In this document: piece after piece, positions 2,563 through 53,062 of the stretch
How the letters are laid out: each line of letters starts with the position of its first letter
Position numbering within the stretch: the first letter of the stretch is position 1
NCBI RefSeq assembly: GCF_900112525.1
Contig: NZ_FOMD01000001.1
Span: forward strand, 434,001 to 498,000
Length of the DNA stretch: 64,000 bases
Direction: 5' to 3'
From: Klenkia taihuensis
Lineage (GTDB): Bacteria; Actinomycetota; Actinomycetes; Mycobacteriales; Geodermatophilaceae
Made by a program: the position numbers and the translations under genes
The notes under the pieces: generated by a model
Seen by the model: only the letters and a program-made list of their open reading frames with translations
The model's database searches: none
Told to the model about the DNA's origin: nothing

Positions 2563-3929
2563 CGCGCGGGCGGGTGGTGGTCGTGGGCGCCGGGCCGGTG
2601 GGGCTGACCGCGGCCCTGCTGCTGGCCCGCCGCGGCCACGACGTGCAGGTGCTGGAGCGGCGCACCGGGCCCTCCGAGCTGCCCCGCGCGGTGCACCTGG
2701 ACGCCGAGGCGCGGCGGGTGCTCGCCGACGCGGGGGTGGGCGAGGCGTTCGCCCGGGTCAGCGCGCCCGGGGCGGGGCTGCGGCTGCTGGACGCCGACCA
2801 CCGGGTGCTCGCCGAGTTCCCCCGCGAGCCGGGCGCCGCGTCGATGTTCCACCAGCCCGACCTGGAGCAGCTGCTGCGCGGTGCGGCGGCCGCCGCCGGC
2901 GTGGAGCTGGTCACCGGGGTCGAGGTGCAGCGGGTCCGGCGCACCCGGCGGGGCGCGCAGGTCGAGACGGACCGGTCCACCCTGGCCGCCGACGTCGTGC
3001 TGGGCTGCGACGGCGCGCACTCGGTGGTGGCCCGCGAGGTCGGCGCCCGGTGGCGGCAGCTGGCCCGCCCGGACCGCTGGCACGTGGTGGACCTGCTGGC
3101 CCCCGCCCCGCTGGCCGGTTGGCCGGGGGTGCACCAGGTGTGCGACCCCGACCGGGCGGCGACGTTCATGCCGGTGTCCGGACGGCGCTACCGCGCCGAG
3201 TTCCGGGTGACCGGCCAGCCGCTCGACCTGCCCGCCGAGCTCGCCCGGTTCGGCGCGCAGGACTGCGAGGTCGTGCGGGCCACCGACTACACCTACGGCG
3301 CCCGGGTGGCCCGGCGCTGGCGGTCGGGGCGGGTGCTGATCGCCGGGGACGCCGCCCACCTCACCCCGCCGTTCATCGGCCAGGGCCTCGGGCTGGGGCT
3401 GCGGGACGTGCACCAGCTGGCGTGGAAGGTCGACGCGGTGCTCGCCGGGGCGCCCGACGCGCTGCTGGACACCCACGGCCGGGAGCGGGCCGCGCACGCC
3501 CGCGCGCTGGTCCGGCTGGCCGCGTTCACCGGCTGGCTGATGACCGCCGGCGGCCCGCGCGCCGCCCGGGTGCGCCGGGTGGTGCTGCGGCTGCTGCCCC
3601 GCACGCTGCTGGCCGCCGGCACCCCGCCGCTGCGCCGCGGGCCGTGGGTGCGCCGTCCGCGGGTCGGCCCGTCCCGGGGCGTGGGGCGGCCGGTGCCCGA
3701 CGTCGAGCTGCGCCGCGGCCGCCGGCTGGACGACGTCCTCGGGCCCGGGTGGGCGCTGCTGGTCTGCTCCACCGAGGTGCCCGAGCTGCCGGTGCTGCCC
3801 GGCGGGGCGCGGCCGCGGGTGCTGCACCGGGGTGCGCTGCCCGACCTGGGCCCGGCGCTGCGGGACCGCTGGGTGCTGGTGCGCCCGGACCGGGTGGTCG
3901 CCGCCGTCGGCCCCCGCGTCCAGCGTTGA
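2559..3929 (+). CDS. FAD-dependent aromatic-hydroxylase-type monooxygenase
   Basis: The 456-residue flavoprotein belongs to the PheA/TfdB/MhpA family. It has the N-terminal Rossmann signature GAGPVG (10-15), a DG motif in LGCDGAHS and the second FAD motif GDAAHLTPP (Asp near 264). The C-terminal third is a thioredoxin-like cap of the kind seen in MhpA-type 3-(3-hydroxyphenyl)propionate hydroxylases. It would hydroxylate an aromatic substrate using NAD(P)H and O2; the substrate cannot be read from sequence. ATGA overlap with the phosphatase gene indicates coupling. Its stop codon abuts the first intergenic palindrome. Confidence 0.85.
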   Translation: MTRGRVVVVGAGPVGLTAALLLARRGHDVQVLERRTGPSELPRAVHLDAEARRVLADAGVGEAFARVSAPGAGLRLLDADHRVLAEFPREPGAASMFHQPDLEQLLRGAAAAAGVELVTGVEVQRVRRTRRGAQVETDRSTLAADVVLGCDGAHSVVAREVGARWRQLARPDRWHVVDLLAPAPLAGWPGVHQVCDPDRAATFMPVSGRRYRAEFRVTGQPLDLPAELARFGAQDCEVVRATDYTYGARVARRWRSGRVLIAGDAAHLTPPFIGQGLGLGLRDVHQLAWKVDAVLAGAPDALLDTHGRERAAHARALVRLAAFTGWLMTAGGPRAARVRRVVLRLLPRTLLAAGTPPLRRGPWVRRPRVGPSRGVGRPVPDVELRRGRRLDDVLGPGWALLVCSTEVPELPVLPGGARPRVLHRGALPDLGPALRDRWVLVRPDRVVAAVGPRVQR

Positions 3930-4013
3930 TCAGGGAGGTTGATCGACGTCCGTCCTCCCTCGCGAGATCTGGTGCAGGAGGACGGCGTCCGGTGCAGGAG
4001 GACGGCGGGGCAG
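3925..4013. repeat. Intergenic palindromic repeat, copy A
   Basis: The element starts at the monooxygenase stop codon. It has the family signature: a TTGATCAGGGAGGTTGATC direct repeat at 3926-3944, then an imperfect dyad (GTCCGTCCTCC ... GGAGGACGG) around GAGATCTGG, then a second short GGTGCAGGAGGACGGCG unit at about 3990-4007. The same layout occurs at 52974-53062, and related elements at 32148 and 43158. This is the only copy between two co-directional genes. Confidence 0.85.
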
Positions 4014-4023
4014 GATCGGGCCC

Positions 4024-5226
4024 ATGAGCTTCGACGTCGCCGCCGTCCGGTCGCACTTCCCCGCGCTGCAGGGCGGCGCCGCCCACTTCGACGGCCCCGG
4101 CGGCACGCAGGTGCCCACCCCGGTCGCCGACGCCGTGCACGCGGCCCTGGTCGCCCCGATGGCCAACCGCGGGGCGACGACGCAGGCCGAGCGCAACGCC
4201 GACGACGTCGTGCGCGCCGCGCGGCAGGCAGTGGCCGACCTGGTCGGCGGGCAGCCCGGCGGCGTGGTGTTCGGCCGCAGCGCCACCGTGCTGACCTACG
4301 ACCTGGCCCGCACGCTGTCCGCCGGCTGGGGGCCCGGCGACGAGGTGGTGGTGACCCGGCTGGACCACGACGCCAACGTGCGCCCGTGGGTGCAGGCCGC
4401 CGAGCGGGCCGGCGCGACGGTGCGGTGGGCGGAGTTCGACCCGGCCACCGGCGAGCTCACCGCCGCCGACGTCGCGGCCGTGGTCACCGACGCGACCCGG
4501 CTGGTCGCCGTCACCGGGGCGTCGAACCTGATCGGCACCCGCCCGCCGCTGCCGCAGATCGCCGGCGTGGTGCACGCCGCGGGGGCGCTGCTGCACGTGG
4601 ACGGCGTGCACCTGACCGCGCACGCCCCGGTCGACCTCGCCGAGCTGGGCTGCGACACCTTCACCTGCTCGCCGTACAAGTTCCTCGGCCCGCACTGCGG
4701 CGTGCTGGTCGCCGACCCGGCCTTCCTGCAGACGCTGCACCCGGACAAGCTGCTGCCCTCCACCGACGCCGTCCCCGAGCGGTTCGAGCTGGGCACGCTG
4801 CCCTACGAGCTGCTGGCCGGCACCACCGCGGCGGTGGACTTCCTGGCCGGTCTCGGCGCCGGCGCGACCCGGCGGGAGCGGCTGCTGACCGGCATGGCGG
4901 CGCTGGAGGAGCACGAGGACGCGCTGCGCGCCTCGCTCGAGGACCGGCTGCGCGAGCTCCCCGGGGTGACCCTGTGGTCCCGTGCCGAGCGCCGGACGCC
5001 GACGCTGCTGGTCACCTTCGAGGGCCGGGACGCCGCCGACGCCTACCGCTACCTCGCCGCAGGCGGGGTGAACGCCCCGGCGGGGTCGTTCTACGCGCTG
5101 GAGTGCTCGCGCCGGCTGGGCCTGGGCGACACCGGGGGCCTGCGCATCGGTCTGGCCCCCTACAGCGACGACGCGGACGTCGACCGCCTGCTGGAGGGCC
5201 TGCGCGGCTTCCTCGCCCGGGCCTGA
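4024..5226 (+). CDS. Cysteine-desulfurase-like PLP-dependent aminotransferase (class V)
   Basis: The 400-residue class V aminotransferase-fold protein starts directly with the FPAL / GPGGTQVP region and carries the PLP lysine in SPYKFLGPHCG (K219). It matches the cysteine-desulfurase-like subfamily (TIGR01976 type) rather than SufS or IscS: there is no Suf/Isc context and no obvious mobile active-site cysteine loop. Substrate is unknown; C-S or C-N lyase or transaminase activity are all possible. The start lies a few bases after palindrome copy A and has only a weak Shine-Dalgarno (AGGA). It converges with mftR and ends seven bases from it. Confidence 0.8.
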   Translation: MSFDVAAVRSHFPALQGGAAHFDGPGGTQVPTPVADAVHAALVAPMANRGATTQAERNADDVVRAARQAVADLVGGQPGGVVFGRSATVLTYDLARTLSAGWGPGDEVVVTRLDHDANVRPWVQAAERAGATVRWAEFDPATGELTAADVAAVVTDATRLVAVTGASNLIGTRPPLPQIAGVVHAAGALLHVDGVHLTAHAPVDLAELGCDTFTCSPYKFLGPHCGVLVADPAFLQTLHPDKLLPSTDAVPERFELGTLPYELLAGTTAAVDFLAGLGAGATRRERLLTGMAALEEHEDALRASLEDRLRELPGVTLWSRAERRTPTLLVTFEGRDAADAYRYLAAGGVNAPAGSFYALECSRRLGLGDTGGLRIGLAPYSDDADVDRLLEGLRGFLARA

Positions 5227-5233
5227 GGGCGGG

Positions 5234-5821
5234 TCAGCGGAGGGTGGGGAACCCGCCGGCGAGCTGGTCGAAGGCGGCGTGCAGGTCGTCGGCCAGCGAG
5301 CCCTCGCCGGCCAGCCACGCCTCGAACGCGGTGGTCGCCGCGGCACGGGTCGAGAGCGCGACCAGCCGCGGCACGAGGGAGTCGGGGCGGCAGCCGGTGC
5401 GCCGGGCGACGTGCTCGGCGACCACCCGGTCGACGTCGGCGTAGCGCACCTGCGAGTGCGCCTGCAGCGCCGGCTCGGTGAGGATCAGCCGCATCCGCTC
5501 GCGCAGCAGCGGCAGGTCGGCGCCGGGGTAGTCGTTGACCTCGACGTAGGCGGCGCAGATGGAGGCGAGCACCGGCTGGTCCTCCGACGTCGCGGCCAGC
5601 AGCTCCTGGAGCCGGACGACGTGGGCGTGGAAGTCGCCCCACACCGCGTCGGCCTTGGTGGCGAAGTGCCGGAAGAACGTGCGCCGGCTGATCCCGGCCG
5701 CGTCGGCGAGCTCGTCGGCGGTGACGGCGTCGAAGTCGCGCTCGGCGAACAGCTCCAGGGCGGCGGCCTCGATGCGGGCGCGGGTCACCTCGCGGGTGGC
5801 GGGTTCGCTCACGACGCGCAT
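5234..5821 (-). CDS. mftR: Mycofactocin system TetR-family transcriptional regulator MftR
   Basis: The TetR-type repressor of about 195 residues has its N-terminal helix-turn-helix in the first 55 residues (ISRRTFFRHFATKADAVW). It is divergent from mftA, the usual position of mftR. In mycobacteria MftR represses the mft genes and is relieved by long-chain acyl-CoAs. ATG 5821 was chosen because AGAGGGGG precedes it; ATG 5824, GTG 5812 and a GTG at 5845 are alternatives, the last lying inside the palindrome proposed as operator. Autoregulation from the shared 77-base divergent region is likely. Confidence 0.88.
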   Translation of the reverse strand: MRVVSEPATREVTRARIEAAALELFAERDFDAVTADELADAAGISRRTFFRHFATKADAVWGDFHAHVVRLQELLAATSEDQPVLASICAAYVEVNDYPGADLPLLRERMRLILTEPALQAHSQVRYADVDRVVAEHVARRTGCRPDSLVPRLVALSTRAAATTAFEAWLAGEGSLADDLHAAFDQLAGGFPTLR

Positions 5822-5831
5822 CATCCCCCTC

Positions 5832-5861
5832 TTGCCCGGTGGCACTGGGTGCCACTAGCGT
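5832..5861 (+). promoter_or_regulatory. mftA promoter with palindromic operator in the spacer
   Basis: A perfect inverted repeat GTGGCACTGGGTGCCAC (5839-5855; 7-base arms, 3-base centre) lies between a possible -35 (TTGCCC, 5832-5837) and a possible -10 (TAGCGT, 5856-5861), almost exactly filling the 18-base spacer. Its position between mftR and mftA makes it the natural MftR operator. The promoter boxes are inferred by eye. Confidence 0.65.
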
Positions 5862-5898
5862 CGGCCGTGTCCGTGACCCAGCTCACCAGGAGGCATCC

Positions 5899-6009
5899 GT
5901 GCCGGAGCAGACCGAGACCGAGACCCCCGCCCCCGCCGCCGAGGAGGTCCTCACCGAGGAGTCCCTGGTGGAGGAGGTCTCCATCGACGGCATGTGCGGC
6001 GTGTACTGA
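5899..6009 (+). CDS. mftA: Mycofactocin precursor peptide MftA
   Basis: This 36-residue peptide ends in IDGMCGVY, the diagnostic C-terminus of MftA. The terminal Val-Tyr is what MftC decarboxylates and crosslinks and MftE releases to build mycofactocin. The leader is acidic (many Glu). It starts at GTG 5899 behind a strong AGGAGG (5888-5893), five bases away. Too short for routine gene finders, but the C-terminal eight residues, the RBS and the mftR/mftB/mftC neighbours make the call secure. Confidence 0.97.
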   Translation: MPEQTETETPAPAAEEVLTEESLVEEVSIDGMCGVY

Positions 6010-6028
6010 GCCGTTGGCCGACACCCTC

Positions 6029-6346
6029 GTGACCGGGCCCGGCACGGGCCCGGTCACGATCCCCGCTGACGAGGTCCCCTTCGACCCCACCGTGGGCTGG
6101 CGGAAGTCGCCGTCGGTGGCGCTGCGCCCGGAGCCCTTCGGCGCGCTGGTCTACCACTTCGGCAACCGCAAGCTGTCGTTCCTGAAGTCGAAGCCGCTGG
6201 TCGCGGTGGTCAAGGCCCTGGAGGCCCACCCCGACGTCGCGTCCACCCTGCGGGCCTGCGACGTCCCCGAGGCCCAGCACCCCGCCTACGTGACCGCCCT
6301 GGCGACCCTGTCGCGTTCCCAGATGATCGAAAGGAGGACCCCGTGA
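6029..6346 (+). CDS. mftB: Mycofactocin precursor-recognition protein MftB
   Basis: The roughly 105-residue RiPP recognition element (PqqD-like) has the characteristic RPEPFGALVYHFGNRKLSFL block. MftB binds the MftA leader and presents it to MftC. It lies 19 bases after mftA and overlaps mftC by GTGA. The start is uncertain: GTG 6029 is used, TTG 6014 would add five residues, and neither has a convincing RBS, so translation may depend on coupling to mftA. Confidence 0.92.
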   Translation: MTGPGTGPVTIPADEVPFDPTVGWRKSPSVALRPEPFGALVYHFGNRKLSFLKSKPLVAVVKALEAHPDVASTLRACDVPEAQHPAYVTALATLSRSQMIERRTP

Positions 6347-11352: not shown

Positions 11353-12303
11353 TTGGACGAGATCAACCGGACGACGTCGTCCGCGGCGGCGGACGTGCGC
11401 GCCGTGCGCGAGCGCGTCGCCACCCACCTGGTCGGCCGCGAGCGCGAGACCGACCTGCTGCTGGCCGCGGTCGCCGCCGGCCGCGACGTGCTCATCGAGG
11501 GCCCGCCGGGGACGTCGAAGTCGACGCTGCTGCGGGCGATCACCGGCGAGTGGGGCATCCCGCTGCTGTTCGTCGAGGGCAACGCCGACCTCACCCCGAC
11601 CCGGCTGGTGGGCCACCACAACCCGGCCCGGGTGCTGCGGGAGGACTACACCGCCGACAACTTCGTGGCCGGCCCGCTGGTCGAGGCGATGCGCACCGGC
11701 GGCTTCCTCTACGTCGAGGAGTTCAACCGGGCGCCCGAGGACACCCTGAACACGCTGCTCACGGCCATGGCGGAACGCTCCGTCACGGTGCCGACGATGG
11801 GCACGGTGCGCGCCGCGGACACCTTCCGCGTGGTGGCGAGCATGAACCCCTACGACGCGGTGGGCACGACCCGGATGCCGACGTCGGTGTCGGACCGGAT
11901 GTGCCGGCTGGCGGTCGGCTACCAGGACGCCGAGGCCGAGCGCGGGATCGTCGGCCGGCGGACCGGCATCGAGGCGCGCCGGCTGGTCGCCGACGCCGTG
12001 GCGCTGACCCGGGCGACGCGGGAGCGGGACGACGTCCGACAGGGCAGCAGCGTGCGCGGGGCGATCGACGTCGCGCTGGTGGCGTCGCAGCTGGCTGCGA
12101 TGCGCGGGGTCGCCGTCCCCGACACCGACGAGCTGCGCGGGCTGCCCGAGGACTACACCGCGGTGGTGTGGGACGCGATGCTGGTGGCGCTGAGCGGCCG
12201 GGTGCACCTGGACGAGATCGCCGAGCAGACACCGGAGGGCGTGCTGCGCGAGATCTGGGAGGACCACTTCCTGCTGCAGCCGGCCGCCGCCGCGCCCGGT
12301 TGA
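11353..12303 (+). CDS. MoxR-family AAA+ ATPase
   Basis: The 316-residue AAA+ ATPase has Walker A GPPGTSKST (about 49-57), Walker B LYVEEFNRAPED, sensor 1 in VVASMNPYD and an arginine-finger region. MoxR ATPases act with a VWA partner as a metalloenzyme-maturation chaperone pair (MoxR/NorQ/CoxD type), and the next gene encodes a VWA protein. The start is TTG 11353 with AGGA seven bases upstream; no ATG or GTG is better placed. It is the eighth gene in the rightward mycofactocin block, or the ninth if the possible 43-residue ORF is real. Confidence 0.88.
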   Translation: MDEINRTTSSAAADVRAVRERVATHLVGRERETDLLLAAVAAGRDVLIEGPPGTSKSTLLRAITGEWGIPLLFVEGNADLTPTRLVGHHNPARVLREDYTADNFVAGPLVEAMRTGGFLYVEEFNRAPEDTLNTLLTAMAERSVTVPTMGTVRAADTFRVVASMNPYDAVGTTRMPTSVSDRMCRLAVGYQDAEAERGIVGRRTGIEARRLVADAVALTRATRERDDVRQGSSVRGAIDVALVASQLAAMRGVAVPDTDELRGLPEDYTAVVWDAMLVALSGRVHLDEIAEQTPEGVLREIWEDHFLLQPAAAAPG

Positions 12304-31301: not shown

Positions 31302-32138
31302 GTGCAGTTGGAGAACTCGTTCCTCGTCCCCGTCCCCGTCGACGACGCGTGGAAGGTGCTGCTCGACATCGAGCGGATCGCGCCGTGCATGCCCGGCGCA
31401 GCGCTCGACAGCGTGGAGGGCGACGACTTCACCGGCCGGGTCAAGGTCAAGCTCGGCCCGATCAACCTGACCTACGCCGGCAAGGCGTCCTTCATCGAGA
31501 AGGACGAGGCCGCGCACAAGGCCGTCATCGACGCCCGCGGCAAGGACCAGCGCGGCAACGGCACCGCCGCCGCCGTGGTCACCGCCCAGCTCAAGAGCGA
31601 GGGCGACTCGACCCGCGTCGACGTCCTCACCGACCTCAACATCACCGGCCGCCCGGCCCAGTTCGGCCGCGGCGTGATGACCGACGTCGGCAACAAGCTG
31701 CTCGGCCAGTTCGCCGACAAGCTCGCCGCCCAGCTCGGCGAGACCGAGGCCCCGGCGCAGGAGCCGACGGTCGAGAGCACCGTCAAGGAGAAGGCCGCCG
31801 ACGCCGCGGCCACCGCCGCCGGTGCGGTCGGCGAGGTCGCCGAGTCCGTCGCGGGCGTCGACGGCGACACCCCGATCGCCGAGGCCGCCCGCAAGGCCGC
31901 CTCCACGACGGTGCAGGCCGCCGACGCCGCCGCCGACAGGGCGGAGGAGGCCAAGAAGGAGGCCGCGAAGCCGGTCGCCGCCACCCCGGCCGCCCGCACG
32001 CCGCAGGCCGAGCCGGAGCCCATCGACCTGCTCGACGTCGCCGGCGGTGCGGCGTTCACCCGGTTCGCCAAGCCCGCCGCGATCGGCGTCGGCGCGCTGC
32101 TGCTGGTCGCCCTCGTCGTCCGCCGCCGCCGGCGGTAG
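31302..32138 (+). CDS. coxG: CoxG-like SRPBCC membrane-anchored protein
   Basis: The 278-residue protein has an N-terminal CoxG/SRPBCC domain (about 1-150; VDDAWKVLLDIERIAPCMPGA), an Ala/Glu-rich linker (about 150-245) and a C-terminal membrane helix followed by an Arg-rich cytoplasmic tail. CoxG anchors the CODH complex to the membrane in Afipia (Oligotropha) and, in newer work, may bring quinone to the enzyme. Here the tail-anchor fits that role. Excellent GGAGGT RBS seven bases before GTG 31302. Confidence 0.88.
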   Translation: MQLENSFLVPVPVDDAWKVLLDIERIAPCMPGAALDSVEGDDFTGRVKVKLGPINLTYAGKASFIEKDEAAHKAVIDARGKDQRGNGTAAAVVTAQLKSEGDSTRVDVLTDLNITGRPAQFGRGVMTDVGNKLLGQFADKLAAQLGETEAPAQEPTVESTVKEKAADAAATAAGAVGEVAESVAGVDGDTPIAEAARKAASTTVQAADAAADRAEEAKKEAAKPVAATPAARTPQAEPEPIDLLDVAGGAAFTRFAKPAAIGVGALLLVALVVRRRRR

Positions 32139-32147: not shown

Positions 32148-32241
32148 CAGCGTTGATCAGGGGGGTTGGTCGAACTCCCGCTCCCTGCGCCAGATCTGGT
32201 GCAGGAGGACGGAGTTCGATCAACCCCCCTGATCGTTGCTG
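32148..32241. repeat. Intergenic palindromic repeat, copy B (full-length dyad)
   Basis: This copy is an almost complete inverted repeat of about 94 bases. The left arm begins CAGCGTTGATCAGGGGGGTT, the right arm ends with its near reverse complement CCCCCCTGATCGTTGCTG, and the centre is CCAGATCTGG. Arms are about 43 bases with a few mismatches. It fills the gap between the convergent coxG and alpha/beta hydrolase genes, where a bidirectional terminator would be expected. Confidence 0.9.
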
Positions 32242-32244
32242 GGC

Positions 32245-32859
32245 CTAGGGGAGCGCGGCGAGCCAGGTCGTCACGGCGGCGCGGACGGCGGGCGGGTCGG
32301 CCTTGAGCGCGTGGTCGCCGCGCACCGCCACCACGGTCGCCGGGTGCTCGCCCAGCTCGGCGACCACCGCGGTCGGCCCGCCGAACGCGTCGCTGTCGCC
32401 CTGCACCACCAGCACGGGGACGGCGACCGCGGTCAGCTCGCCCGCCCGGCTCTTCTCCGGCTTGCCCGGCGGGTGCAGCGGGAACGCGAGACACAGCACA
32501 CCCGCCGCACCCAGGGCCCCCGCCGTCCGGCAGGCCACCCGCGCGCCGGCGCTGCGGCCGCCGAGCACGACCGGGCCGGTGAGCAGGTCGCCGACCGCGC
32601 CGTGGATCGCCGTCCAGCCCTCGTCGAGCTTCGGCGGCGCCGCGGCGACGCGCTTGCCGGCCACCCGCCAGGGCTGCTCGACGCGCAGCACCCGCCAGCC
32701 CAGCCCGACCGCGGCGTCGGTGGCCGCGAGCAGGTCCGGTGCCTCGATGCCGCCGCCGGCGCCGTGCCCCAGCAGCAGGGTGCCGGCGACGTTCCCCACC
32801 GGGTCGTCGACGGTCACCCGGGCGGGGCCGAGCGGGGTGTCGACGTCCCGGGTGGTCAC
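32245..32859 (-). CDS. Alpha/beta hydrolase of the KANL3/Tex30 (dienelactone-hydrolase-like) type
   Basis: The 204-residue minimal alpha/beta hydrolase has an oxyanion segment LLLGHGAGGG (28-37), the nucleophile elbow GGRSAG (about 100-105), an acid in GDSDAFGG and the histidine in RGDHAL. Such proteins are small esterases of unknown substrate. GTG 32859 overlaps the TGA of the MinD-like gene, so the two are co-translated. It ends next to palindrome copy B. Confidence 0.8.
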   Translation of the reverse strand: MTTRDVDTPLGPARVTVDDPVGNVAGTLLLGHGAGGGIEAPDLLAATDAAVGLGWRVLRVEQPWRVAGKRVAAAPPKLDEGWTAIHGAVGDLLTGPVVLGGRSAGARVACRTAGALGAAGVLCLAFPLHPPGKPEKSRAGELTAVAVPVLVVQGDSDAFGGPTAVVAELGEHPATVVAVRGDHALKADPPAVRAAVTTWLAALP

Positions 32860-41574: not shown

Positions 41575-41611
41575 TCCCGGTCGGGCCCGGCGCGGGGGTG
41601 GGTACCCTCGT

Positions 41612-41687
41612 CGCCGGGCCGTGACTGGCGCACAGGTGGTCCACCACCGGGGAGCGGCTCCGACGTGACCGCCGCGCGCCTGGGCAC
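41612..41687 (+). ncRNA. ZTP (pfl) riboswitch upstream of glyA
   Basis: The leader contains the conserved segments of the ZTP riboswitch in order: CCGTGACTGGCGCACAGGTG (41619-41638), CCACCGGGGAGCGG (41644-41657) and CCGCGCGCCTGGGCA (41672-41686). These form the pseudoknotted ZTP/ZMP pocket. glyA is a classic target. Only 25 bases separate the aptamer from the ATG, holding the GGAGGAG RBS (41700-41706), so control at translation start is more likely than a terminator switch. Confidence 0.9.
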
Positions 41688-41711
41688 CGAGCCATCCACG
41701 GAGGAGCCCCG

Positions 41712-43139
41712 ATGACCACCACCCCGTCGCCCGAGAGCACCGCCTTCCAGGCCGCGCTGCAGGTGATCGCCGACGTCGAGCCCGCCGTGGCCGCCGCGAT
41801 CGGCCAGGAGCTGCACGACCAGCGCGAGAGCCTCAAGCTCATCGCCAGCGAGAACTACGCCTCCCCGGCGACGCTGCTGGCGATGGGCAACTGGTTCAGC
41901 GACAAGTACGCCGAGGGCACCCCCGGCCGCCGCTTCTACGCCGCCTGCCAGAACGTCGACACCGTCGAGCGGCTCGCCGCCGAGCACGCCCGCGCCCTGT
42001 TCGGCGCCGAGTACGCCTACCCGCAGCCGCACTCGGGCATCGACGCGAACCTGGTCGCCTTCTGGGCGATCCTCGCCCACCGCGTGGAGACCCCGGCGCT
42101 CGCCGAGGCCGGGGTGAAGAACGTCGACGCGCTCGGCGAGGCCGACTGGGCGAACCTGCGCCGCGCGCTGGGCGACCAGCGGATGCTCGGCATGAGCCTG
42201 GACGCCGGTGGCCACCTCACCCACGGCTTCCGGCCGAACATCAGCGGCAAGATGTTCCACCAGGCCAGCTACGGCACCGACCCCGAGACCGGGCTCATCG
42301 ACTACGCCGCGCTGCGCAAGCAGGCGAACGAGTTCAAGCCGCTGATCCTGGTGGCCGGGTACTCGGCCTACCCGCGGCGGGTCGACTTCGCCGCGATGCG
42401 CGAGATCGCCGACGAGGTGGGCGCGACCCTGATGGTCGACATGGCCCACTTCGCCGGGCTGGTCGCGGGCAAGGTGTTCACCGGCGACGAGGACCCGGTG
42501 CCGCACGCCCACGTCGTCACCACCACCACGCACAAGTCGTTGCGCGGCCCGCGCGGCGGCATGGTGCTGGCCACCGAGGAGTACGCCCCCTCCATCGACC
42601 GCGGCTGCCCGCTGGTGCTCGGTGGCCCGCTGGGCAACGTGATGGCCGCCAAGGCGGTCGCGTTCGCCGAGGCCCGCCGGCCCGACTTCGCCGACTACGC
42701 GCAGCGGATCGTGGACAACTCCCGGGCGCTGGCCGAGTCGCTGCTGCGCCGCGGCGTCGTGCTGGTCACCGGCGGCACCGACAACCACCTGGTGCTCGCC
42801 GACGTCTCCGGCGTCGGGCTCACCGGCCGGCAGGCCGAGGCGGCCCTGCTGGAGAGCGGCCTGGTCACCAACCGCAACGCGGTGCCGGGCGACCCGAACG
42901 GACCCTGGTACACCTCCGGCATCCGGCTGGGCACACCTGCGCTGACCACCCGTGGGCTGGGCACCGCCGAGCTGGCCGAGGTGGGCGACCTGATGGCCGA
43001 CGTCCTCGAGGCCACCACCGCGGTGGGCGACTCCAAGGTCAAGTTCACCATCGCCGACGGCGTGGCCGAGCGGGTCCGCGCCCGGGCCGCCGAGATCGTT
43101 GGCGCGCACCCGCTGTACCCGGGCGTCGAGCTGGTCTGA
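41712..43139 (+). CDS. glyA: Glycine/serine hydroxymethyltransferase
   Basis: The 475-residue PLP enzyme makes glycine and methylene-THF from serine and THF. It shows [13 protein letters not shown] (about 37-49), the PLP lysine in [14 protein letters not shown] and [16 protein letters not shown]. It is longer than the E. coli enzyme (417) because of the inserts seen in actinobacterial long forms. RBS GGAGGAG five bases before the ATG. Regulated by the ZTP riboswitch; followed by palindrome copy C. Confidence 0.95.
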
Positions 43140-43230
43140 CCCGGGTCCTCCCGCGCAGAAGTCCGGCCCCCTGCACCAGATCTGGTGCAGGGGGCCGGAC
43201 TTCGATCAACCTCCCTGGTCATCGCTGAGC
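43140..43230. repeat. Intergenic palindromic repeat, copy C (perfect 46-base palindrome)
   Basis: A perfect 46-base inverted repeat spans 43158-43203, starting GAAGTCCGGCC and centred on CCAGATCTGG. Its right flank keeps the family tail (GATCAACCTCCCTGGTCATC), but the matching left tail is replaced. The stem differs from copies A and D (G/C-rich GGCCCCC instead of GTCCTCC) yet is exactly self-complementary. It lies between convergent glyA and the secreted repeat protein. Confidence 0.92.
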
Positions 43231-43282: not shown

Positions 43283-45142
43283 TCAGGCCGCCGAGCGGCG
43301 ACGGCCGGCCAGGGCGAGGCCCAGGCCACCCGCCAGGGCCAGCAGGCCCAGGGCGGCCGCGTCGGAGACGTCGGCACCGGTGTAGGCCAGCGACGACGGA
43401 GCCGAGTAGGACGCGTTCACCGTGGTGCCGTGGCCGGAGCCGGCGACGACCGGGGCGGCGTGCTGCACCGCGGCGGCCGGGTGCGCGGCAGCCGGGGCGG
43501 CCGGGGCCGGGTGGGCCGGCTGGGCCGGCTGGGCCGGGGTCCCCGGCTGCGCCGGGTGGGTGGGACCGGCCGGGCTGGTCGGCTCCTCGGCGGAGCAACC
43601 CGAACCGGAGGCGGCGCCGTTGGCCGAGCCGCCGACGGCGGAGGTGCAGCCGTCGACCGTGGTGTCGCCGACGTGGTTGGAGGCGTTGCCGCCCTCGTTC
43701 ACGACGGTGGCGTCACCGCTGGTGGTGATCGGGTTGCAGTTGTTGTCGCTCTTGTAGTTGAAGCAGTGGACGACGACGGTGTTGCCGGAGTTGGCCCAGC
43801 CCTTGTTGCCGCCGGTCCAGGCCCACTGCCACGGGGCGACCTCGACCCAGTGGCCCTCGGCGTCGGCGTCCCCACCGGAGGCCGAGTTGCCGACGCCGGT
43901 GCTGGCACCGCCCGAGCCGGAGCCCAGGCTGACGCTCTCGGACGAGCCGGTGGCGCTGCCCGTGGAGGCGTTGCCGCCGGTGGCGCCGGTGTTGCCGCTG
44001 ACCGTGGTGTCACCGACGTGGTTGGAGGCGTTGCCCCCGTTGTTGCTGACCGACGCGTTGCCGCTGTGCGTCACCGGGTTGCAGTTGTCGTTGCTCTTGA
44101 AGTTGAAGCAGATGACGTGGACGGTGTTGCCGCTGTTCGCCGCGCCCGTGTTCCCGCCGCTGCCGGCGAACTGCCACGGGGCGACGGTGACGCCGTGCCC
44201 GTAGGCCTCGGCGTCACCGCCGCCGGCCGAGTTCGACACCGAGGTGTCGGCCCCCGACGAGCTGCCGTAGAACCAGCCGTTCAGCCAGGACAGGAAGTCC
44301 GAGACGTCGACGCTCTCCGAGCTGCCCGACGCGCTCCCGGTCGAGGCGTTGCCCCCGGTGGCGGAGGTGTTCCCGCCGACGGTGGTGTCCCCGACGGTGT
44401 TGGAGGCGTTGCCGCCGGTGTTGGTCACCGAGGCGTTGCCCGTGCTGGTCACGGGGCTGCAGTTGGAGTGGCTCTTGTAGTTGAGGCAGAGGACGTAGAC
44501 CGTGCTGCCGCTGTTCGCCGCACCCGAGTTGCCGCCGGAGATCGCCCCCTGCGTCGGCTCGACACCCACCACGTGACCCCCGGCGGTGGCGTCGCCGCCG
44601 GTCGCGGAGGAGTCGACGGAGGTCGAGGCGCCCGAGCCGCCGCCCGACGTGGACGCGACGGCCTCGGAGCCGCCGCCGGAGCTGCTGCCGCCGGTGCCGA
44701 CCGCCTCGGACGAGCCGGACGTGCTGCCGGTGGAGGCGTTGCCGCCCGTCGCGGTGGTGGTGCCGGTGACGGTGGTGTCGCCGACGGAGTTGCCGGCGTT
44801 GCCCCCGGTGTTGCTCACCGAGGCGCTGCCGCTGCTGGTCTGCGGGTTGCCGTTGCCGTCGCTGTGGACGTCCGCCCCGCCGACGGAGACCTCGTTGCCG
44901 CTGTTCGCGACGCCCTCGTTGCCGCCGCTGCCGGCGACCTGGGTGGGGGCGACGTAGACGTCGTGCCCGACCGCGTCGGCGTCGCCGCCGGTCGAGGAGT
45001 TGCCGACCTCGGTGACGGCGGTGCCGCCCCCGACGGACTCGGAGGTGGCCCCGGTGTCGGCCGAGGCGACCGCCTGGCCGAGGAGCCAGATGCCCCCGGC
45101 CATGGTGGCAACGGCGAGGCCGTTGCGCACGGTTCGGTTCAT
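43283..45142 (-). CDS. Secreted cell-wall protein with four long repeats and LAYTG sortase signal
   Basis: The 619-residue protein has a signal peptide (cut near ASA at about 28) and four repeats of 110-140 residues. Each repeat contains GGDA.A.GH.V.VAPxQ, SGGNxGxANSG, GNASV.N.GGNASN.VGDTTV and ATGGNASTGS. Repeats 2-4 also carry a Cys pair (for example VICFNFKSNDNC). A Pro/Ala-rich spacer precedes LAYTG (about 585), a hydrophobic helix and RRRSAA, an LAxTG sorting signal (class E sortase). The Gly/Asn/Ser/Thr-rich repeats suggest a beta-solenoid surface fibre. Family unknown. RBS AAGGA before ATG 45142. Confidence 0.85.
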   Translation of the reverse strand: MNRTVRNGLAVATMAGGIWLLGQAVASADTGATSESVGGGTAVTEVGNSSTGGDADAVGHDVYVAPTQVAGSGGNEGVANSGNEVSVGGADVHSDGNGNPQTSSGSASVSNTGGNAGNSVGDTTVTGTTTATGGNASTGSTSGSSEAVGTGGSSSGGGSEAVASTSGGGSGASTSVDSSATGGDATAGGHVVGVEPTQGAISGGNSGAANSGSTVYVLCLNYKSHSNCSPVTSTGNASVTNTGGNASNTVGDTTVGGNTSATGGNASTGSASGSSESVDVSDFLSWLNGWFYGSSSGADTSVSNSAGGGDAEAYGHGVTVAPWQFAGSGGNTGAANSGNTVHVICFNFKSNDNCNPVTHSGNASVSNNGGNASNHVGDTTVSGNTGATGGNASTGSATGSSESVSLGSGSGGASTGVGNSASGGDADAEGHWVEVAPWQWAWTGGNKGWANSGNTVVVHCFNYKSDNNCNPITTSGDATVVNEGGNASNHVGDTTVDGCTSAVGGSANGAASGSGCSAEEPTSPAGPTHPAQPGTPAQPAQPAHPAPAAPAAAHPAAAVQHAAPVVAGSGHGTTVNASYSAPSSLAYTGADVSDAAALGLLALAGGLGLALAGRRRSAA

Positions 45143-47945: not shown

Positions 47946-48974
47946 ATGGCACCGCGATCGACCGCGCGACGCTGGACCCGGACGGCGGTGCCGGCCGTCG
48001 TGGCCGGCGTGCTGCTCACCCTCACCGCGGGGCCCGCCGTCGCCGAGCCGACCACCGCCGCCGAGGCCGCCGACGCGGTCACGCAGGCCGCCCAGCAGGT
48101 CGAGGCGCTGGGCGAGCAGGTCCACGACGCCGAGCTCGCCGTGGCCGACCAGCAGGCCGCGGCCGCCGCCGCCGCGGGTGCGGCCGACACCGCCGCCGCC
48201 GCGGTGACCGCCCTGCAGCCCCAGGTCGACGCCATCGTGCGCAGCGGCTTCGTCGACGGCGTGCCGTCGGGCCTGGAGACCATGCTGAGCAGCGACTCCG
48301 CGGACGAGGTGCTGCAGCGGGTGTCCACGATCAACCAGCTCACCTCGCACACCGACGCCGTCCTCGGGCAGCTGGCGCTGGCCCAGCAGGCCGCGCAGCA
48401 GGCCCGCGCCGACGCCGACGCCGCCGCGGCGCAGGCCGCCACCGCGCTGGCCGACCTGGAGGCGCAGCAGGACCAGGTGCAGGCCCAGCTCGCCGCCTAC
48501 CGCGCCGACTACGCCCGGCTGGCCGCCCCGCTGCAGGCGCAGGTGGACCGCGCCGTCGCCGGGCCGGAGCTGTCCGCCGCGGCGATGGCCGACGCGGCGG
48601 CCGCCGCTCCCGCGGCCGCACCGAGCGAGGCGGCCGGGGTCGCGATCGAGGCCGCCCTCGCCCAGCTCGGCAAGCCCTACGTGTGGGGTTCGTCCGGTCC
48701 CGACGGCTTCGACTGCTCGGGTCTCATGCAGTACGCCTACGCGGCCGCCGGCATCTCGCTGCCGCACTCCAGCCGCGCCCAGTCCGGCCTGGGGACGCCG
48801 GTCTCGCGAGCCGAGCTGCAGCCCGGTGACCTGGTGTTCTTCTACTCACCGGTGAGCCACGTCGGCATGTACATCGGCAACGGGCAGATGGTGCACGCCA
48901 GCGTCAGCGGCCGTCCGGTCGCCGTCACCAGCGTCGACCAGCGGGGCTACGTCGGCGCGCGCCGCGTCGCCTGA
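47946..48974 (+). CDS. Secreted NlpC/P60 peptidoglycan endopeptidase (RipA-like)
   Basis: The 342-residue protein has a signal peptide (cut near 33), a long Ala/Gln-rich coiled coil (about 40-200) and a C-terminal NlpC/P60 domain with catalytic FDCSG (C257), His in HVGMYIG and HAS. It cleaves the D-iGlu-mDAP bond in peptidoglycan, likely during cell separation. ATG 47946 has GACCGGAGG upstream. Its 3' end is antisense to the tail of the DedA gene. Confidence 0.9.
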   Translation: MAPRSTARRWTRTAVPAVVAGVLLTLTAGPAVAEPTTAAEAADAVTQAAQQVEALGEQVHDAELAVADQQAAAAAAAGAADTAAAAVTALQPQVDAIVRSGFVDGVPSGLETMLSSDSADEVLQRVSTINQLTSHTDAVLGQLALAQQAAQQARADADAAAAQAATALADLEAQQDQVQAQLAAYRADYARLAAPLQAQVDRAVAGPELSAAAMADAAAAAPAAAPSEAAGVAIEAALAQLGKPYVWGSSGPDGFDCSGLMQYAYAAAGISLPHSSRAQSGLGTPVSRAELQPGDLVFFYSPVSHVGMYIGNGQMVHASVSGRPVAVTSVDQRGYVGARRVA

Positions 48975-49580
48975 CCGCTTCCGCGACCGCCGCCCGCGCA
49001 CCTTCCACGCGACGACGACGGCGACCACCACGACGGCGGCGACCACCGCACCGGTGGTGCCGACCTTCGAGGCCACGGTCTCCCACGAGGCCCCGGCCAG
49101 GTAGCCGAGGAGCACCGCACCGACGCCCCAGACCAGCCCGCCGACCGCGTTCCAGGCCAGGAAGGTCCGGTAGCGCATCCGGGCGGCCCCGGCCAGCGCC
49201 GGGGTGACCGCGCGCAGGAACGCGGTGAGCCGGGCCAGGAACACCGCCGGGCCGCCGCGCCGGGCCAGGGTGTCCGACGCTGCGTCGATGCCCTGCTGGT
49301 GCCGGCGCGCCAGCCGGCCGGCGAGCAGGCGCGGCCCGAACCGCCTGCCGACCTCGTAGCCCAGGCTGTCGCCGACGACCGCCGCCGCGACCACCAGGGC
49401 GCCGAGCAGCCAGACGTCGCCGTGGCCCTGCGAGGCGGCCACCCCGCCCAGCACGACCGCGGTCTCCGCCGGTACGACGAAGCCGACGAACAGGGCGTCC
49501 TCGACGACGACCAGGGTCACCACGACCGCGTAGACCCAGATCGCCGGGACCGACAGCAGGCGTTCGAGCAGGGCGGTCAT
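48846..49580 (-). CDS. DedA-family membrane protein (second)
   Basis: The 244-residue protein has about five membrane segments, a DedA core with FVGFVVPAETAVVLGGVAA (about 31-49) and VFLARLTAFLRAVTPALAG (about 113-131), and a soluble C-terminal tail. The last 43 codons overlap the NlpC gene on the opposite strand; the tail may be non-essential or the frame extended by mutation of an earlier stop. ATG 49580 is the natural start. Function as a lipid flippase is inferred from the family. Confidence 0.85.
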   Translation of the reverse strand: MTALLERLLSVPAIWVYAVVVTLVVVEDALFVGFVVPAETAVVLGGVAASQGHGDVWLLGALVVAAAVVGDSLGYEVGRRFGPRLLAGRLARRHQQGIDAASDTLARRGGPAVFLARLTAFLRAVTPALAGAARMRYRTFLAWNAVGGLVWGVGAVLLGYLAGASWETVASKVGTTGAVVAAVVVVAVVVAWKVRGRRSRKRSGDAARADVAPLVDAGDGDRTAADAGVHHLPVADVHADVAHR

Positions 49581-49641
49581 GCGACGGGTCGTGCCCCACC
49601 GACTGGGCCGTGGCTGTCCGGACCCTGTGGGTCCCCGGGGA

Positions 49642-50853
49642 TCAGCCGCCCTCGCGCATGCCCCAGGGCGAGCCGTAGGCGGTGAGCAGCTCCAGGAACG
49701 GCACCGCGTCGAAGGCCTCCGGACCCAGCACGCCCGAGCCCGACCAGGTGCCCGCGGCCAGCAGCTCCAGGGCCACCACCGGGTTCACCGCGGTCTGCCA
49801 GACCACGGCCTGGTGGCCGTACTCGCGCATGGACCACTCGTTGTCCACCACGTGGTACAGGTAGACCTGCCGGGGCTCGCCGTCCTGGCCGGTACCGGTG
49901 ACCCACAGCCCGGCGCAGGTCTTGCCCGTCATCCGGTCGCCCAGCCCGGCCGGGTCGGGCAGGCACGCGGCGACGACGTCCCGCGGGCTGACCTGCACAC
50001 CCTTGACCGTCACCGGGTCGGTGCGGTCCAGGCCCACCTTGTGCAGCGCCTTGAGCACGTCGATGAACTCGGTGCCCAGGCCGTACTTGAAGGTGACCCG
50101 GCCGGCGTCCACCCAGCGCGGCATGAGGAGCACCTCCTCGTGCTCCACGTTCACGCACTCCACCGGGCCGATGCCCTCGGGGAACTCGAACACCTCGGGC
50201 TCGCTGAACGGCGGGGTGGTGAAGAACCCGCGGCCGGCCTCGTAGACCACCGGCGGGTTCAGGCACTCCTCTATCGTGGTCCAGATGCTGAACGACGGGG
50301 CGAAGTCGTAGCCGCTGACCTCGAGGTTCGCCCCGTCGCGCACGCCGAGCTCGTCGATCGAGGAGAACAGGTGGTCGGCGGCGTAGCGGGCGAACACGTC
50401 GGACAGCCCCGGTTCCACGCCCATGCCGACCAGTGCCAGCTGCCCGGCGGCCTCCCACTCGCCGGCCAGCTCGAACTGCTCGTCGCCGAGCTTGACGCCG
50501 GTCTCGGCGTACGGGTTCTCCGGGTGGGGGCGGGACAGCGACATGGCCATGTCCACGTAGGTCGCCCCGCCGGCCAGCGCCGCGCGGAACAGCGGCATGA
50601 CGAACCGGGGGTCCACGGCGTTCATCAGCACGTCGCAGCGGTGCTCGGCCAGCAGCGCGGCCACCGCGTCGGCGTCCCCGGCGTCCACCGACCCGGCGGA
50701 GCTGAACCGCGGGTCCCCGACGGCCTCGGCGGTGGCCCGGGCCCGGTCGCCGTCGTAGTCGGTGACGACCACGGCCTCGGGGAAGGCGCGACGGGCGGCG
50801 ATGGCGGCGAAGGCGCTGCCGACGCCGCCGGCACCGACCAGGAGGATGCGCAT
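49642..50853 (-). CDS. Saccharopine-dehydrogenase-family oxidoreductase
   Basis: The 403-residue NAD(P)-dependent enzyme has the Rossmann signature VGAGGVGSAF (6-15) and DVLMNAVDPRF, as in saccharopine and lysine 6-dehydrogenases. The divergent APC permease and USP, with an aminotransferase just beyond, suggest amino-acid breakdown (lysine, beta-alanine or GABA-like). Substrate not determinable. It ends 61 bases from the DedA start and is divergent from the permease. Confidence 0.82.
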   Translation of the reverse strand: MRILLVGAGGVGSAFAAIAARRAFPEAVVVTDYDGDRARATAEAVGDPRFSSAGSVDAGDADAVAALLAEHRCDVLMNAVDPRFVMPLFRAALAGGATYVDMAMSLSRPHPENPYAETGVKLGDEQFELAGEWEAAGQLALVGMGVEPGLSDVFARYAADHLFSSIDELGVRDGANLEVSGYDFAPSFSIWTTIEECLNPPVVYEAGRGFFTTPPFSEPEVFEFPEGIGPVECVNVEHEEVLLMPRWVDAGRVTFKYGLGTEFIDVLKALHKVGLDRTDPVTVKGVQVSPRDVVAACLPDPAGLGDRMTGKTCAGLWVTGTGQDGEPRQVYLYHVVDNEWSMREYGHQAVVWQTAVNPVVALELLAAGTWSGSGVLGPEAFDAVPFLELLTAYGSPWGMREGG

Positions 50854-50911
50854 GGGGACCTTCTTCTCTCGCGGGACGGGTGCGCCGACTGTAGGTGACG
50901 ACGATCACGAG

Positions 50912-50930
50912 GGCGACGGCTTCCGTCGCC
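50912..50930. promoter_or_regulatory. Inverted repeat in the dehydrogenase/permease divergent promoter
   Basis: GGCGACGG-CTT-CCGTCGCC has perfect eight-base arms and a three-base centre between the divergent genes starting at 50853 and 51015. It is a good candidate binding site for a regulator that controls both. The regulator is not encoded next door. Confidence 0.5.
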
Positions 50931-51014
50931 TCACCAAGTCGTAACACGGGAAACCCTTGTGAAGAAGGTCTCTACCTGCGATAACCGTGGGATGACGGAC
51001 AGCCCGGGCGCCCC

Positions 51015-52535
51015 ATGAGCGCCCCCTCGCAGGAGCCGCAGCTCAAGCAGGGCGCGATCGGCTTCGTCGACGCCCTGGTCATCGGCCTGGCGTCCACCTC
51101 ACCGGCCTACTCGCTGGCCGCCGTGGTGGGTGCCGTCGTCGCCCTCGTCGGCGTCTACGCGCCCGGCGTCTTCCTCGCGTCCTTCGTCCCGATGCTGCTC
51201 ATCGCCTCGGCCTTCTACTACCTGAACAAGGCCGACCAGGACTGCGGGACGACGTTCTCCTGGGTCACCCGGGCGATGGGCCCGTGGGTGGGCTGGATGG
51301 GCGGCTGGGCCATCTCGATGACCGGCGTGCTGGTCATCGGGTCCCTCGCCGACACCGGCGTCCGGTTCGGCCTGCTCGCCCTGCAGCTGGACGGCCTGGC
51401 CGACAACACCTTCCTGGTGCGCACGCTGACCGTGCTGCTGATCTTCGCCATGACCTGGATCTGCGTGATCGGCACCGAGGTGAGCGCCAAGCTGCAGAAC
51501 GGCCTGATCATCGCCCAGGTCGGTGCGCTGCTGGTGTTCGCCGTCGTCGCCCTGGTGGCCGGCCTGTCGGGCAACGGCGAGGCCGACGGCGGCAACCTGA
51601 CCCCGTCGCTGGACTGGCTGAACCCCTTCGGCGCCGGCGGTGCCGCGCTGACCGGCGGGCTGCTGCTGGGCGTGTTCATCTACTGGGGCTGGGAGTCCGC
51701 GGTCAACCTGACGGAGGAGACCTCCGACGCGGAGTCGACCCCCGGCAAGGCGGCGATCGTGTCCACCGTCGTCCTGCTGATCACCTACCTCGGCGTCACG
51801 ATCGCGATCCTCAGCTACTTCGGCACCGACTTCCTCGCCTCCCGCGAGGACGAGGCCGAGACGATCTTCGCGACCATGGCCACCGAGGTGCTGGGCGGCT
51901 GGGACTGGGTGCTGCTGCTGGCGGTGGCCACCTCGGCGATCGCGTCGACGCAGACCACGATCCTGCCCGCGTCGCGCACCGGGCTGTCGATGGCCCGGCG
52001 GCACGCCATGCCCCGCTCGCTGGCCCGCATCCACCCCCGGTTCCGGACGCCGGACGTCTCCACCTGGCTGGTCGCCGTCATCGCCGCCGCCTGGTACGTG
52101 GTGGTCAACCTGATCAGCGAGAACGCGCTGTTCGACTCGCTCACCGCGCTCTCGCTGCTGATCGCCTTCTACTACTCACTCACCGGCATCGCCTGCGCGG
52201 TGTTCCACCGCCGCCAGCTCACCCGCAGCGTCAAGGACTTCCTGCTCATCGGCGTCGGGCCGCTGATCGGTTCGGCGCTGCTGATCTGGCTGCTGGTCGA
52301 GTCGATCGGCGACCTGGCCGACCCGGCCAACTCCGACCTCGGCACCGCCTGGTTCGGCCTCGGCCCGCCGCTGGTGATGGGCATCGCGATCTTCCTCGTC
52401 GGGGTCGTCTTCATGCTGTTCTGGCGGGCGAAGGACAAGCGGTTCTGGGCCGAGCAGACGACGACGTCGGACCGCATGCAGGCCGACATCGCCGCCGGCC
52501 GCTCCGGCGCCGCCGTCGAGGACCCCGCCTCGTGA
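51015..52535 (+). CDS. APC-family amino acid permease
   Basis: The 506-residue transporter has about twelve membrane helices, an APC-type start (GFVDALVIGLASTSPAYSLAAVVGA) and WGWESAVNLTEETSD near helix 6. It probably imports an amino acid or amine. The USP gene 16 bases after it and the neighbouring dehydrogenase and aminotransferase indicate a catabolic set. ATG 51015 follows GGGCGCC, weak RBS. Confidence 0.88.
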   Translation: MSAPSQEPQLKQGAIGFVDALVIGLASTSPAYSLAAVVGAVVALVGVYAPGVFLASFVPMLLIASAFYYLNKADQDCGTTFSWVTRAMGPWVGWMGGWAISMTGVLVIGSLADTGVRFGLLALQLDGLADNTFLVRTLTVLLIFAMTWICVIGTEVSAKLQNGLIIAQVGALLVFAVVALVAGLSGNGEADGGNLTPSLDWLNPFGAGGAALTGGLLLGVFIYWGWESAVNLTEETSDAESTPGKAAIVSTVVLLITYLGVTIAILSYFGTDFLASREDEAETIFATMATEVLGGWDWVLLLAVATSAIASTQTTILPASRTGLSMARRHAMPRSLARIHPRFRTPDVSTWLVAVIAAAWYVVVNLISENALFDSLTALSLLIAFYYSLTGIACAVFHRRQLTRSVKDFLLIGVGPLIGSALLIWLLVESIGDLADPANSDLGTAWFGLGPPLVMGIAIFLVGVVFMLFWRAKDKRFWAEQTTTSDRMQADIAAGRSGAAVEDPAS

Positions 52536-52551
52536 CCCCCTGGAGCAAGCA

Positions 52552-52968
52552 GTGAGCATCGTGCTGGGCTACGACGAGTCCCCGGGCGCCCGCCGGGCGC
52601 TGTCCCTGGCCATCGACCTGGCCGGCCGGCTGGACGAGGAGCTGGTGCTGGTCTTCGGCGCCGCCCCGCCGGGCACCGTGGGCGAGGAGTCCGGCGCGCA
52701 CGCGCAGGCGCTGGCCGAGATGGGCGGCACGGCGGTCGCCGGCGCGGTGGAGGCCGCCGACGCCGCCGGGGTGCGCACCGTGGTGGAGGTGCTGCCGGCC
52801 AAGCCGGTGGACGCGCTGCTGGACTCGGCCGACCGGCACGACGCCCGGGTCATCGTGGTCGGCACCTACGGCGAGACCCCGCTGCGCGGCGCGATCCTCG
52901 GGTCGGTGCCGCACAAGCTGCTGCACCTGTCCCCGCGCCCGGTCCTCTGCGTCCCCGCCGAGGCCTGA
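52552..52968 (+). CDS. Universal stress protein (UspA family)
   Basis: The 138-residue single-domain USP has an N-terminal VLGYDESPGARRAL and the ATP-binding motif GTYGETPLRGAILGSVPHKLL (about 103-123) with G-x2-G-x9-G-S. USPs paired with APC permeases probably regulate transport in response to nucleotide state. GTG 52552 lies 16 bases after the permease stop. Followed by palindrome copy D. Confidence 0.9.
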   Translation: MSIVLGYDESPGARRALSLAIDLAGRLDEELVLVFGAAPPGTVGEESGAHAQALAEMGGTAVAGAVEAADAAGVRTVVEVLPAKPVDALLDSADRHDARVIVVGTYGETPLRGAILGSVPHKLLHLSPRPVLCVPAEA

Positions 52969-52973
52969 CCCCC

Positions 52974-53062
52974 AGCGTGGATCAGGGGGGTTGATCGACG
53001 TCCGTCCTCCTGCGCCAGATCTGGCGCAGGAGGACGGACCCCGGTGCAGGAGGACGGCGCCT
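52974..53062. repeat. Intergenic palindromic repeat, copy D (perfect 40-base palindrome)
   Basis: The core at 53000-53039 is a perfect 40-base inverted repeat (GTCCGTCCTCC arm, centre CCAGATCTGG). To its left lies the GATCAGGGGGGTTGATCGAC tail, and to its right a second GGTGCAGGAGGACGGCG unit as in copy A. It sits between the convergent USP and aminotransferase genes and touches the aminotransferase stop at 53061. Confidence 0.92.

Follow-up and report, generated by a model that had tools for sequence, protein, structure and literature searches.

Dispersed long palindromes at gene ends in Klenkia: a REP-like module of the Geodermatophilaceae that may act as a two-sided transcript end

Among the dispersed palindromes described in bacteria, the GTAG-tagged repetitive extragenic palindromes (REPs) measure 20–40 bp, carry their tag at one end and are associated with a Y1 transposase, the REP-associated tyrosine transposase (RAYT), while bacterial interspersed mosaic elements (BIMEs) consist of paired inverted units. 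REPs tagged with CGTC, which have no known dedicated transposase, show stems of 8–9 bp, loops of mostly 4–5 bases, a CGTC head and mostly a CCA tail, and have been reported in five phyla, Actinobacteria not included (PMC3733652, available portion). Other repeated or paired hairpins lie at transcript ends: inverted pairs of the repeated DNA uptake sequences of Neisseria and Pasteurellaceae form terminator hairpins, the signals themselves being about 9–11 nt long and generally present 1000 or more times per genome (PMC1852404, in part), and hairpin terminators that lack a U-run, called I-shaped, have been described for mycobacteria, lying no farther than 50 bp from a stop codon (PMC12288462, in part). 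Here, we analyzed a 64,000-nucleotide stretch of Klenkia taihuensis (contig NZ_FOMD01000001.1, positions 434,001 to 498,000; hereafter the window), in which a preliminary description had pointed to four long palindromes centred on AGATCT, and we followed these elements through their own genome and its relatives. They belong to a superfamily of dispersed, REP-like palindromes that occurs as modules at gene 3' ends in Geodermatophilaceae, the family that includes Klenkia, and most likely serve as a two-sided transcript-end element, a reading in which we place moderate confidence.

In its symmetric form the element is a 94-bp palindrome that starts with CAGCG, continues with a tail such as TTGATCAGGGAGGTTGATC, an arm and the AGATCT centre, and then runs through the mirror image of these parts; the two tails of this full module stand approximately 65 bp apart around the central palindrome. 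In asymmetric copies, a second copy of the arm (like GGTGCAGGAGGACG) replaces the second tail. All four palindromes were present in the window (E1 to E4, Table 1), and the proposed edges could be kept for E2 and were corrected for E1, E3 and E4; two full tails occur only in E2, and each of the other three combines a single tail with an extra copy of the arm. With up to 3 mismatches, the tail pattern was matched 5 times in the window, compared to a mean of 0 in 100 shuffles, and 40 times in the whole K. taihuensis genome (G000; 4.32 Mb in 10 contigs), where the reversed control gave 0 matches. A 90-base query returned 70 BLAST rows, many of which represented both strands of one palindrome. Reading out 42 candidates from the tail, BLAST and centre searches left 40 elements, a number that may miss more diverged copies, namely 39 of a subfamily designated F1 here and a single F3 element (C5:284900) from a different subfamily. 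The two candidates that were dropped (C7:196373 and C10:1218027) were chance centre matches inside genes and had no tails. The family is therefore not a matter of few copies, which had been named as the outcome that would speak against it. By threshold, 10 of the 39 F1 copies are symmetric and 29 asymmetric; by eye, L080 too is symmetric, with a one-base indel. Mean identity among these paralogues is 82% (symmetric) and 79% (asymmetric), with single within-genome pairs reaching 95.7%, and 13 pairs of orthologous F1 copies in K. taihuensis and K. brasiliensis DSM 44526 (G001) average 88%.

The position of the elements relative to genes is strongly biased. Thirty-eight of the 39 F1 copies could be placed between called genes, 25 of them in convergent, 12 in co-directional and one (L113) in divergent gaps; the unplaced copy, L098, lies across a gene called by our custom script, which was trained on these loci and whose gene starts are therefore rough. 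Among 91 element-free gaps of 60–600 bp in the same loci, 5 were convergent, 40 co-directional and 46 divergent (Fisher p = 1.3e-12). The convergent bias suspected from the window, where three of the four elements (E2, E3 and E4) separate convergent genes and E1 separates co-directional ones, thus extends to the genome. Asymmetric copies in co-directional gaps direct their tail towards the end of the upstream gene in 10 of 11 cases (two-sided binomial p = 0.012; the exception is L090), and at E1 the TGA of the tail (3927–3929) is itself the stop codon of the upstream FAD-binding-domain gene. We also surveyed hairpins in all gaps of 30–400 bp within the searched stretches of eight Klenkia genomes, the window element sites and their orthologues included. 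A score of at least 12 was reached by 25 of the 37 convergent gaps, by 17 of the 137 co-directional gaps and by a single one of the 47 divergent gaps, and by none after shuffling (best of three letter shuffles per gap). At the sites of E2 to E4, 19 of the 20 relatives' sequences scored at least 12 and the remaining one (G003 at E2) scored 11.

What occupies these sites differs between species. The E2 site, covered in seven relatives, holds F1 in G003, G008 and Klenkia sp. PcliD-1-E (G006), F3 in K. brasiliensis and G002, and a plain hairpin in G004 and G005. At E4, again with seven relatives, we found a further subfamily, F2, in K. brasiliensis, G003 and PcliD-1-E, F3 in G008, F1 in G002, an F1-like copy in G005 and a plain hairpin in G004. 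Six relatives, all but G004, were compared at E3, with F1 in G002 and unrelated hairpins in K. brasiliensis, G003, G005, PcliD-1-E and G008. At E1, where the comparison of five relatives leaves out G005 and PcliD-1-E, K. brasiliensis has F2, G003 has F1, and G002, G004 and G008 have no element. The F2 element of K. brasiliensis at E1 is bordered by TCCAGCG and GGAGGACGGC, and the F1 element of K. taihuensis has the same borders, which hints at replacement in place. The loci read out in G002 and G008 contain 22 F3 copies, 9 of which stand at sites that carry F1 in K. taihuensis (4 of 13 in G002 and 5 of 9 in G008), one of them (L237) as a tandem of F1 and F3. A pair of elements around one gene (L081) is F1 in K. 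taihuensis and K. brasiliensis and F3 in G002, G008 and PcliD-1-E. In this pair (L081, 3955–5233), which recurs in four relatives, three times as F3, two asymmetric elements with outward tails enclose a gene whose AbiEi-type match is weak (24.8 bits, with the cut-off at 25).

The three subfamilies share a plan more than a sequence. AGATCT, proposed as the centre of the whole family, is typical of F1; in the other subfamilies the centre is usually GGCGCC/GACGCC or GACGTC-like. Some F2 copies of G003 (L204, L207, L209, L212 and L213), read by eye, follow a similar plan with other letters; the F2 module is 96 bp long. The F2 core is present in K. brasiliensis, G003, PcliD-1-E and at one place in G007, is not found in the other five Klenkia genomes, and F2 is present in 3 of the 8 good Klenkia genomes. 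F3 core sites number 24 in G002, 17 in G008, 9 in PcliD-1-E (one strand), 6 in G003, 3 in K. brasiliensis and 1 in K. taihuensis, and the search found none in G004, G005 and G007. Intermediates between subfamilies also exist: the symmetric K. taihuensis copies L095, L099 and L111 combine F1 tails with F3-like arms, in L094 this holds for one side alone, and in L120 an F1 tail accompanies an F3-like core. Moreover, L229, L237, L256 and L285 each contain F1 and F3 copies that adjoin or overlap one another. From these tandems we infer that replacement may proceed through a tandem stage, although both chimeras and tandems are also compatible with ectopic conversion or template switching.

To follow presence and absence across a larger set of sites, we compared K. 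brasiliensis at 31 of the 40 K. taihuensis sites, at places predicted from synteny, which missed nine sites. Upon reading the sequences, we assigned 17 sites to F1, 2 to F2, 1 to F3 and 3 to other hairpins, and 8 had no element; the automatic tally had been 15 F1, 2 F2, 1 F3, 5 other hairpins and 8 without, before L096 and L100 were changed to F1 and L079 to absent. At L079, a convergent site where only a neighbouring hairpin is kept, the element may have been lost in K. brasiliensis, since the arm end GAGGACC remains and PcliD-1-E has the element. Overall, the changes between these species could have run in either direction. At the K. brasiliensis counterpart of C3:292061 (L282, 9474–9526), a short hairpin resembles fused outer F3 tails with the centre seemingly deleted. 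Directly beside the K. brasiliensis F3 element at the E2 site lies an insert of approximately 2.7 kb (L180, 7610–10282) with 58% GC, compared to 75% in the rest of the locus, and two translated open reading frames without a Pfam match. In PcliD-1-E, the orthologue of C3:68365 has an insert at its asymmetric end (L129, 700–1480), between GTAGGAGG and GCAGGAGG, the first reading frame of which matches the Phd/YefM antitoxin family.

Folding and covariation are consistent with conserved pairing. Seven folded elements gave z-scores from -2.8 to -15.7, with the RNA of E2 at -77.3 kcal/mol (z = -12.3). E2, the F3 copy L223 and L265 from another genus folded into a single long hairpin, and E1, E3, E4 and one F2 copy into side and central hairpins; of the four window elements, three had central stems of 17–19 pairs, and otherwise one long stem formed. 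A 45-pair palindrome model applied to 58 two-tailed copies (F1, F3 and variants) paired in 85% of cells, compared to only 30–46% for slid versions, and 30 of the 45 pairs changed on both sides, with 307 double-change cells versus 158 in shuffles. The alignment is biased towards the palindrome, because the copies were picked for both tails and trimmed to 94 bases. The covariation score of the long palindrome (0.292) exceeded that of a three-hairpin model (0.238), which likewise lay above its own controls. Copies with a flipped tail, such as L110, keep the side hairpins and break the long palindrome, and both forms may therefore matter.

The superfamily runs through most of the family that we sampled. 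An exact scan for the tail with one genome per species, which may leave out the K. taihuensis genome or very near ones, found 11 stretches, all in Klenkia (K. brasiliensis DSM 44526 and Klenkia sp. PcliD-1-E). The F1 consensus matched 8 of 9 Klenkia genomes, and the ninth, G007 (73% complete), matched a covariance model. With this model, 84 of 112 family genomes were matched; the matches span 8 of the 12 genera and include 80 of the 96 good genomes. When 397 genomes were drawn from across the order, 66 matched at E 1e-4, 63 of them from the family and three from outside it with weak matches (E 1.2e-6 to 6.6e-5). Both searches used stricter filters, by which weak matches are lost, and scored up to 37 (family) or up to 10 (order-wide) candidates per genome. 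Twelve matches viewed by eye, 4 from Klenkia and 8 from other genera, mostly had CAGCG/CGGCG-like ends, GATCAG tails and a centre of CACC, six bases and GGTG (L271 and L273 deviate); 9 of the 12 were convergent, and at L259 a called gene runs into the element.

Several known systems come close without covering these elements. In the broad sense they are REPs, being palindromic, dispersed, multi-copy and extragenic, with 38 of 39 F1 copies between genes, and the two-tailed form resembles the BIME arrangement. The earlier suggestion of a REP/BIME-like element of this lineage holds in that sense, the matches being almost confined to its own family in the sampled genomes. The Y1/RAYT transposase domain PF01797, the only transposase class searched, had no match in any of the 112 family genomes at E ≤ 0.001 (a control was positive in 5 of 14 named genomes), which makes the elements REP-like in distribution and not RAYT-linked, and a RAYT-driven REP is not supported. 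The full form is also longer, 94 bp versus 20–40 bp for GTAG REPs, and among the 58 aligned two-tailed copies none had GTAG within 10 bases of the start or CTAC within 10 bases of the end, the commonest starts being CAGCG (23) and CGGCG (10). CGTC-tagged REPs likewise lack a known dedicated transposase, and the Klenkia arms contain CGTCC, yet the long central stems differ from the stems and loops given in the available part of PMC3733652; CGTC and CCA tags were not scanned for systematically. Compared to uptake sequences, approximately 40 copies of up to 94 bp are few and long. The I-shaped mycobacterial terminators are likewise hairpins without a U-run near stop codons, but are not described as a repeat family in the accessible text of PMC12288462, whereas the Klenkia element is a repeated module of near-constant length with interchangeable subfamilies. 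The elements also reached no Rfam gathering score: in four loci at E ≤ 1 only microRNA (miRNA) models matched, below their gathering scores, and a known RNA family is not supported. Nor were copies in phage or plasmid records supported, with no match at E 1e-3. A match to a known transposon end, the other outcome that had been named as speaking against the family, did not appear in the Y1, Rfam, phage and plasmid searches. No description of the element was found in the literature searched, chiefly open-access, including the available parts of PMC3733652, PMC9686282, PMC4447401, PMC1852404, PMC3890552, PMC12288462 and PMC11678152. We conclude that it is of a known broad kind, the extragenic palindrome, in a new form defined by its near-constant 94-bp geometry, its interchangeable subfamilies and the absence of a RAYT.

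Given the position at gene ends and the stable hairpins, we hypothesize that, most probably, a long U-less (I-shaped) hairpin between convergent genes would end or protect transcripts from both sides. F1, F2 and F3 have spread within genomes and substitute for one another at the same sites, and the F1–F3 tandems suggest that a new copy inserts beside an older one, one of the two then being lost. The terminator role put forward in the preliminary description fits the position and the hairpin; nonetheless, a number of observations weigh against it in its strict form. When E2 and E3 were scanned, neither showed the hairpin followed by a U-run that marks a canonical intrinsic terminator, and the hairpin score of E2 itself is only 6, owing to its bulges. 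In K. brasiliensis, 8 of the 31 covered sites have no element and 4 of the 21 convergent ones (L084, L093, L101 and L104) have no strong hairpin, L079 being a fifth convergent site without its element; a hairpin is therefore not obligatory, and the notion that one always occupies orthologous convergent gaps, which held at E2 to E4, failed in this survey. When the central hairpin was read from the tail side in 47 asymmetric F1 copies, G-U pairs (31) were not favoured over A-C mismatches (48); the 36 symmetric copies, whose direction is not fixed, gave 25 versus 23 (84 copies entered and one fitted neither form). Selection on that RNA strand is thus not supported. Template-switch correction of quasi-palindromes can also yield palindrome covariation. 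Furthermore, weak matches of the covariance model could be other hairpins, because long-hairpin models cross-match, as the miRNA models do with our elements. As for the literature, the I-shaped terminators of mycobacteria offer a precedent, although the review that describes them (PMC12288462) names Rho-dependent ends as the dominant kind there, and the titles it cites are divided on whether a U-tract is needed. Of 1,383 terminators predicted in Corynebacterium, only 320 had a clear transcript end by RNA-seq, and 72% of those ends fell in the first stem (PMC3890552, in part).

The 8 of 31 covered K. brasiliensis sites without the element, together with the empty E1 site in 3 of 5 relatives, the within-genome pairs of up to 95.7% identity and a subfamily dosage that varies among species (F2 occurs in 3 of the 8 good Klenkia genomes, and F3 at 0 to 24 sites), would suit a non-autonomous mobile element resembling a miniature inverted-repeat transposable element and lacking a host function, whose gene-end position would only reflect where insertion is tolerated or targeted. 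We consider this rather unlikely, as convergent placement lies far above that of comparable element-free gaps, unrelated plain hairpins occupy several of the same orthologous gaps, neither a Y1 match nor phage or plasmid copies were found, and a look by eye at empty sites revealed no obvious target-site duplication. The lack of a G-U preference could instead point to a signal at the DNA level, i.e. a binding site or cruciform for a chromosome-organising or recombination protein that reads a fixed geometry. Consistent with this, the length stays at 94 bp, plus or minus one or two, among the matches listed from several genera despite changed spelling, and all 58 aligned copies have 94 bases, to which they were trimmed. 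However, no candidate protein has been put forward and a transcript role accounts more simply for the gene-end position, making such a signal distinctly improbable. The position evidence and the stable folds would serve equally for an mRNA 3' stabiliser or RNase stop, as hypothesised for REPs, for which mRNA stabilisation is among the roles named in the available portion of PMC3733652. Sequence alone does not distinguish this from termination, and a two-sided palindrome between convergent genes fits both; we give it very little weight as a replacement for termination. Returning to the transcript-end reading, a bolder version would be a self-spreading terminator cassette, set by geometry (two tails, fixed spacing, 94 bp), that copies itself by a non-RAYT route into gene ends throughout the family while new subfamilies displace old ones in place. 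This is a speculative idea that we regard as doubtful; if true, a mobile palindrome would supply and renew the transcript ends of its host.

Dispersed palindromes known from other phyla are thereby joined by a set present in most of the genomes sampled from a single actinobacterial family, for which our searches turned up no earlier description of such repeats. The elements also provide a natural experiment, because between sister species one and the same gene pair may have F1, F2 or F3, may have a plain hairpin, or may have nothing at all. Two long-standing questions thus become directly testable: the role of extragenic palindromes, and whether a hairpin that lacks a U-run can end transcription in actinobacteria of high GC content.

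Table 1. Palindromic elements of the window, their flanking genes and a nearby riboswitch (window coordinates).
Feature	Coordinates	Strand	Form	Flanking genes
E1	3921–4005	+	F1 asymmetric; tail 3921–3944, then arm, AGATCT centre, arm; second arm 3991–4005	Co-directional: FAD-binding-domain protein 2574–3929; class-V aminotransferase 4024–5226
E2	32148–32241	.	F1 symmetric, 94-bp palindrome, both tails	Convergent (ends 32138/32245): CoxG-like 31302–32138 (+); alpha/beta hydrolase 32245–32859 (-)
E3	43145–43227	-	F1 asymmetric, tail at right	Convergent (ends 43139/43283): SHMT-like 41712–43139 (+); gene without Pfam match 43283–45142 (-)
E4	52973–53057	+	F1 asymmetric	Convergent (ends 52968/53061): universal stress protein 52552–52968 (+); class-III aminotransferase 53061–54449 (-)
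ZMP/ZTP riboswitch	41611–41692	+		Just 5' of the SHMT-like gene that ends at E3

Two further observations concern the E3 site. In the window, the ZMP/ZTP riboswitch listed in Table 1 was the only Rfam family to reach its gathering score (52 bits versus 39), and it lies away from the elements. In G008, the E3 site holds another long palindrome of unrelated sequence (L187, about 11360–11506, beginning AACGATCATGGGGTTG), which may represent a further repeat family.

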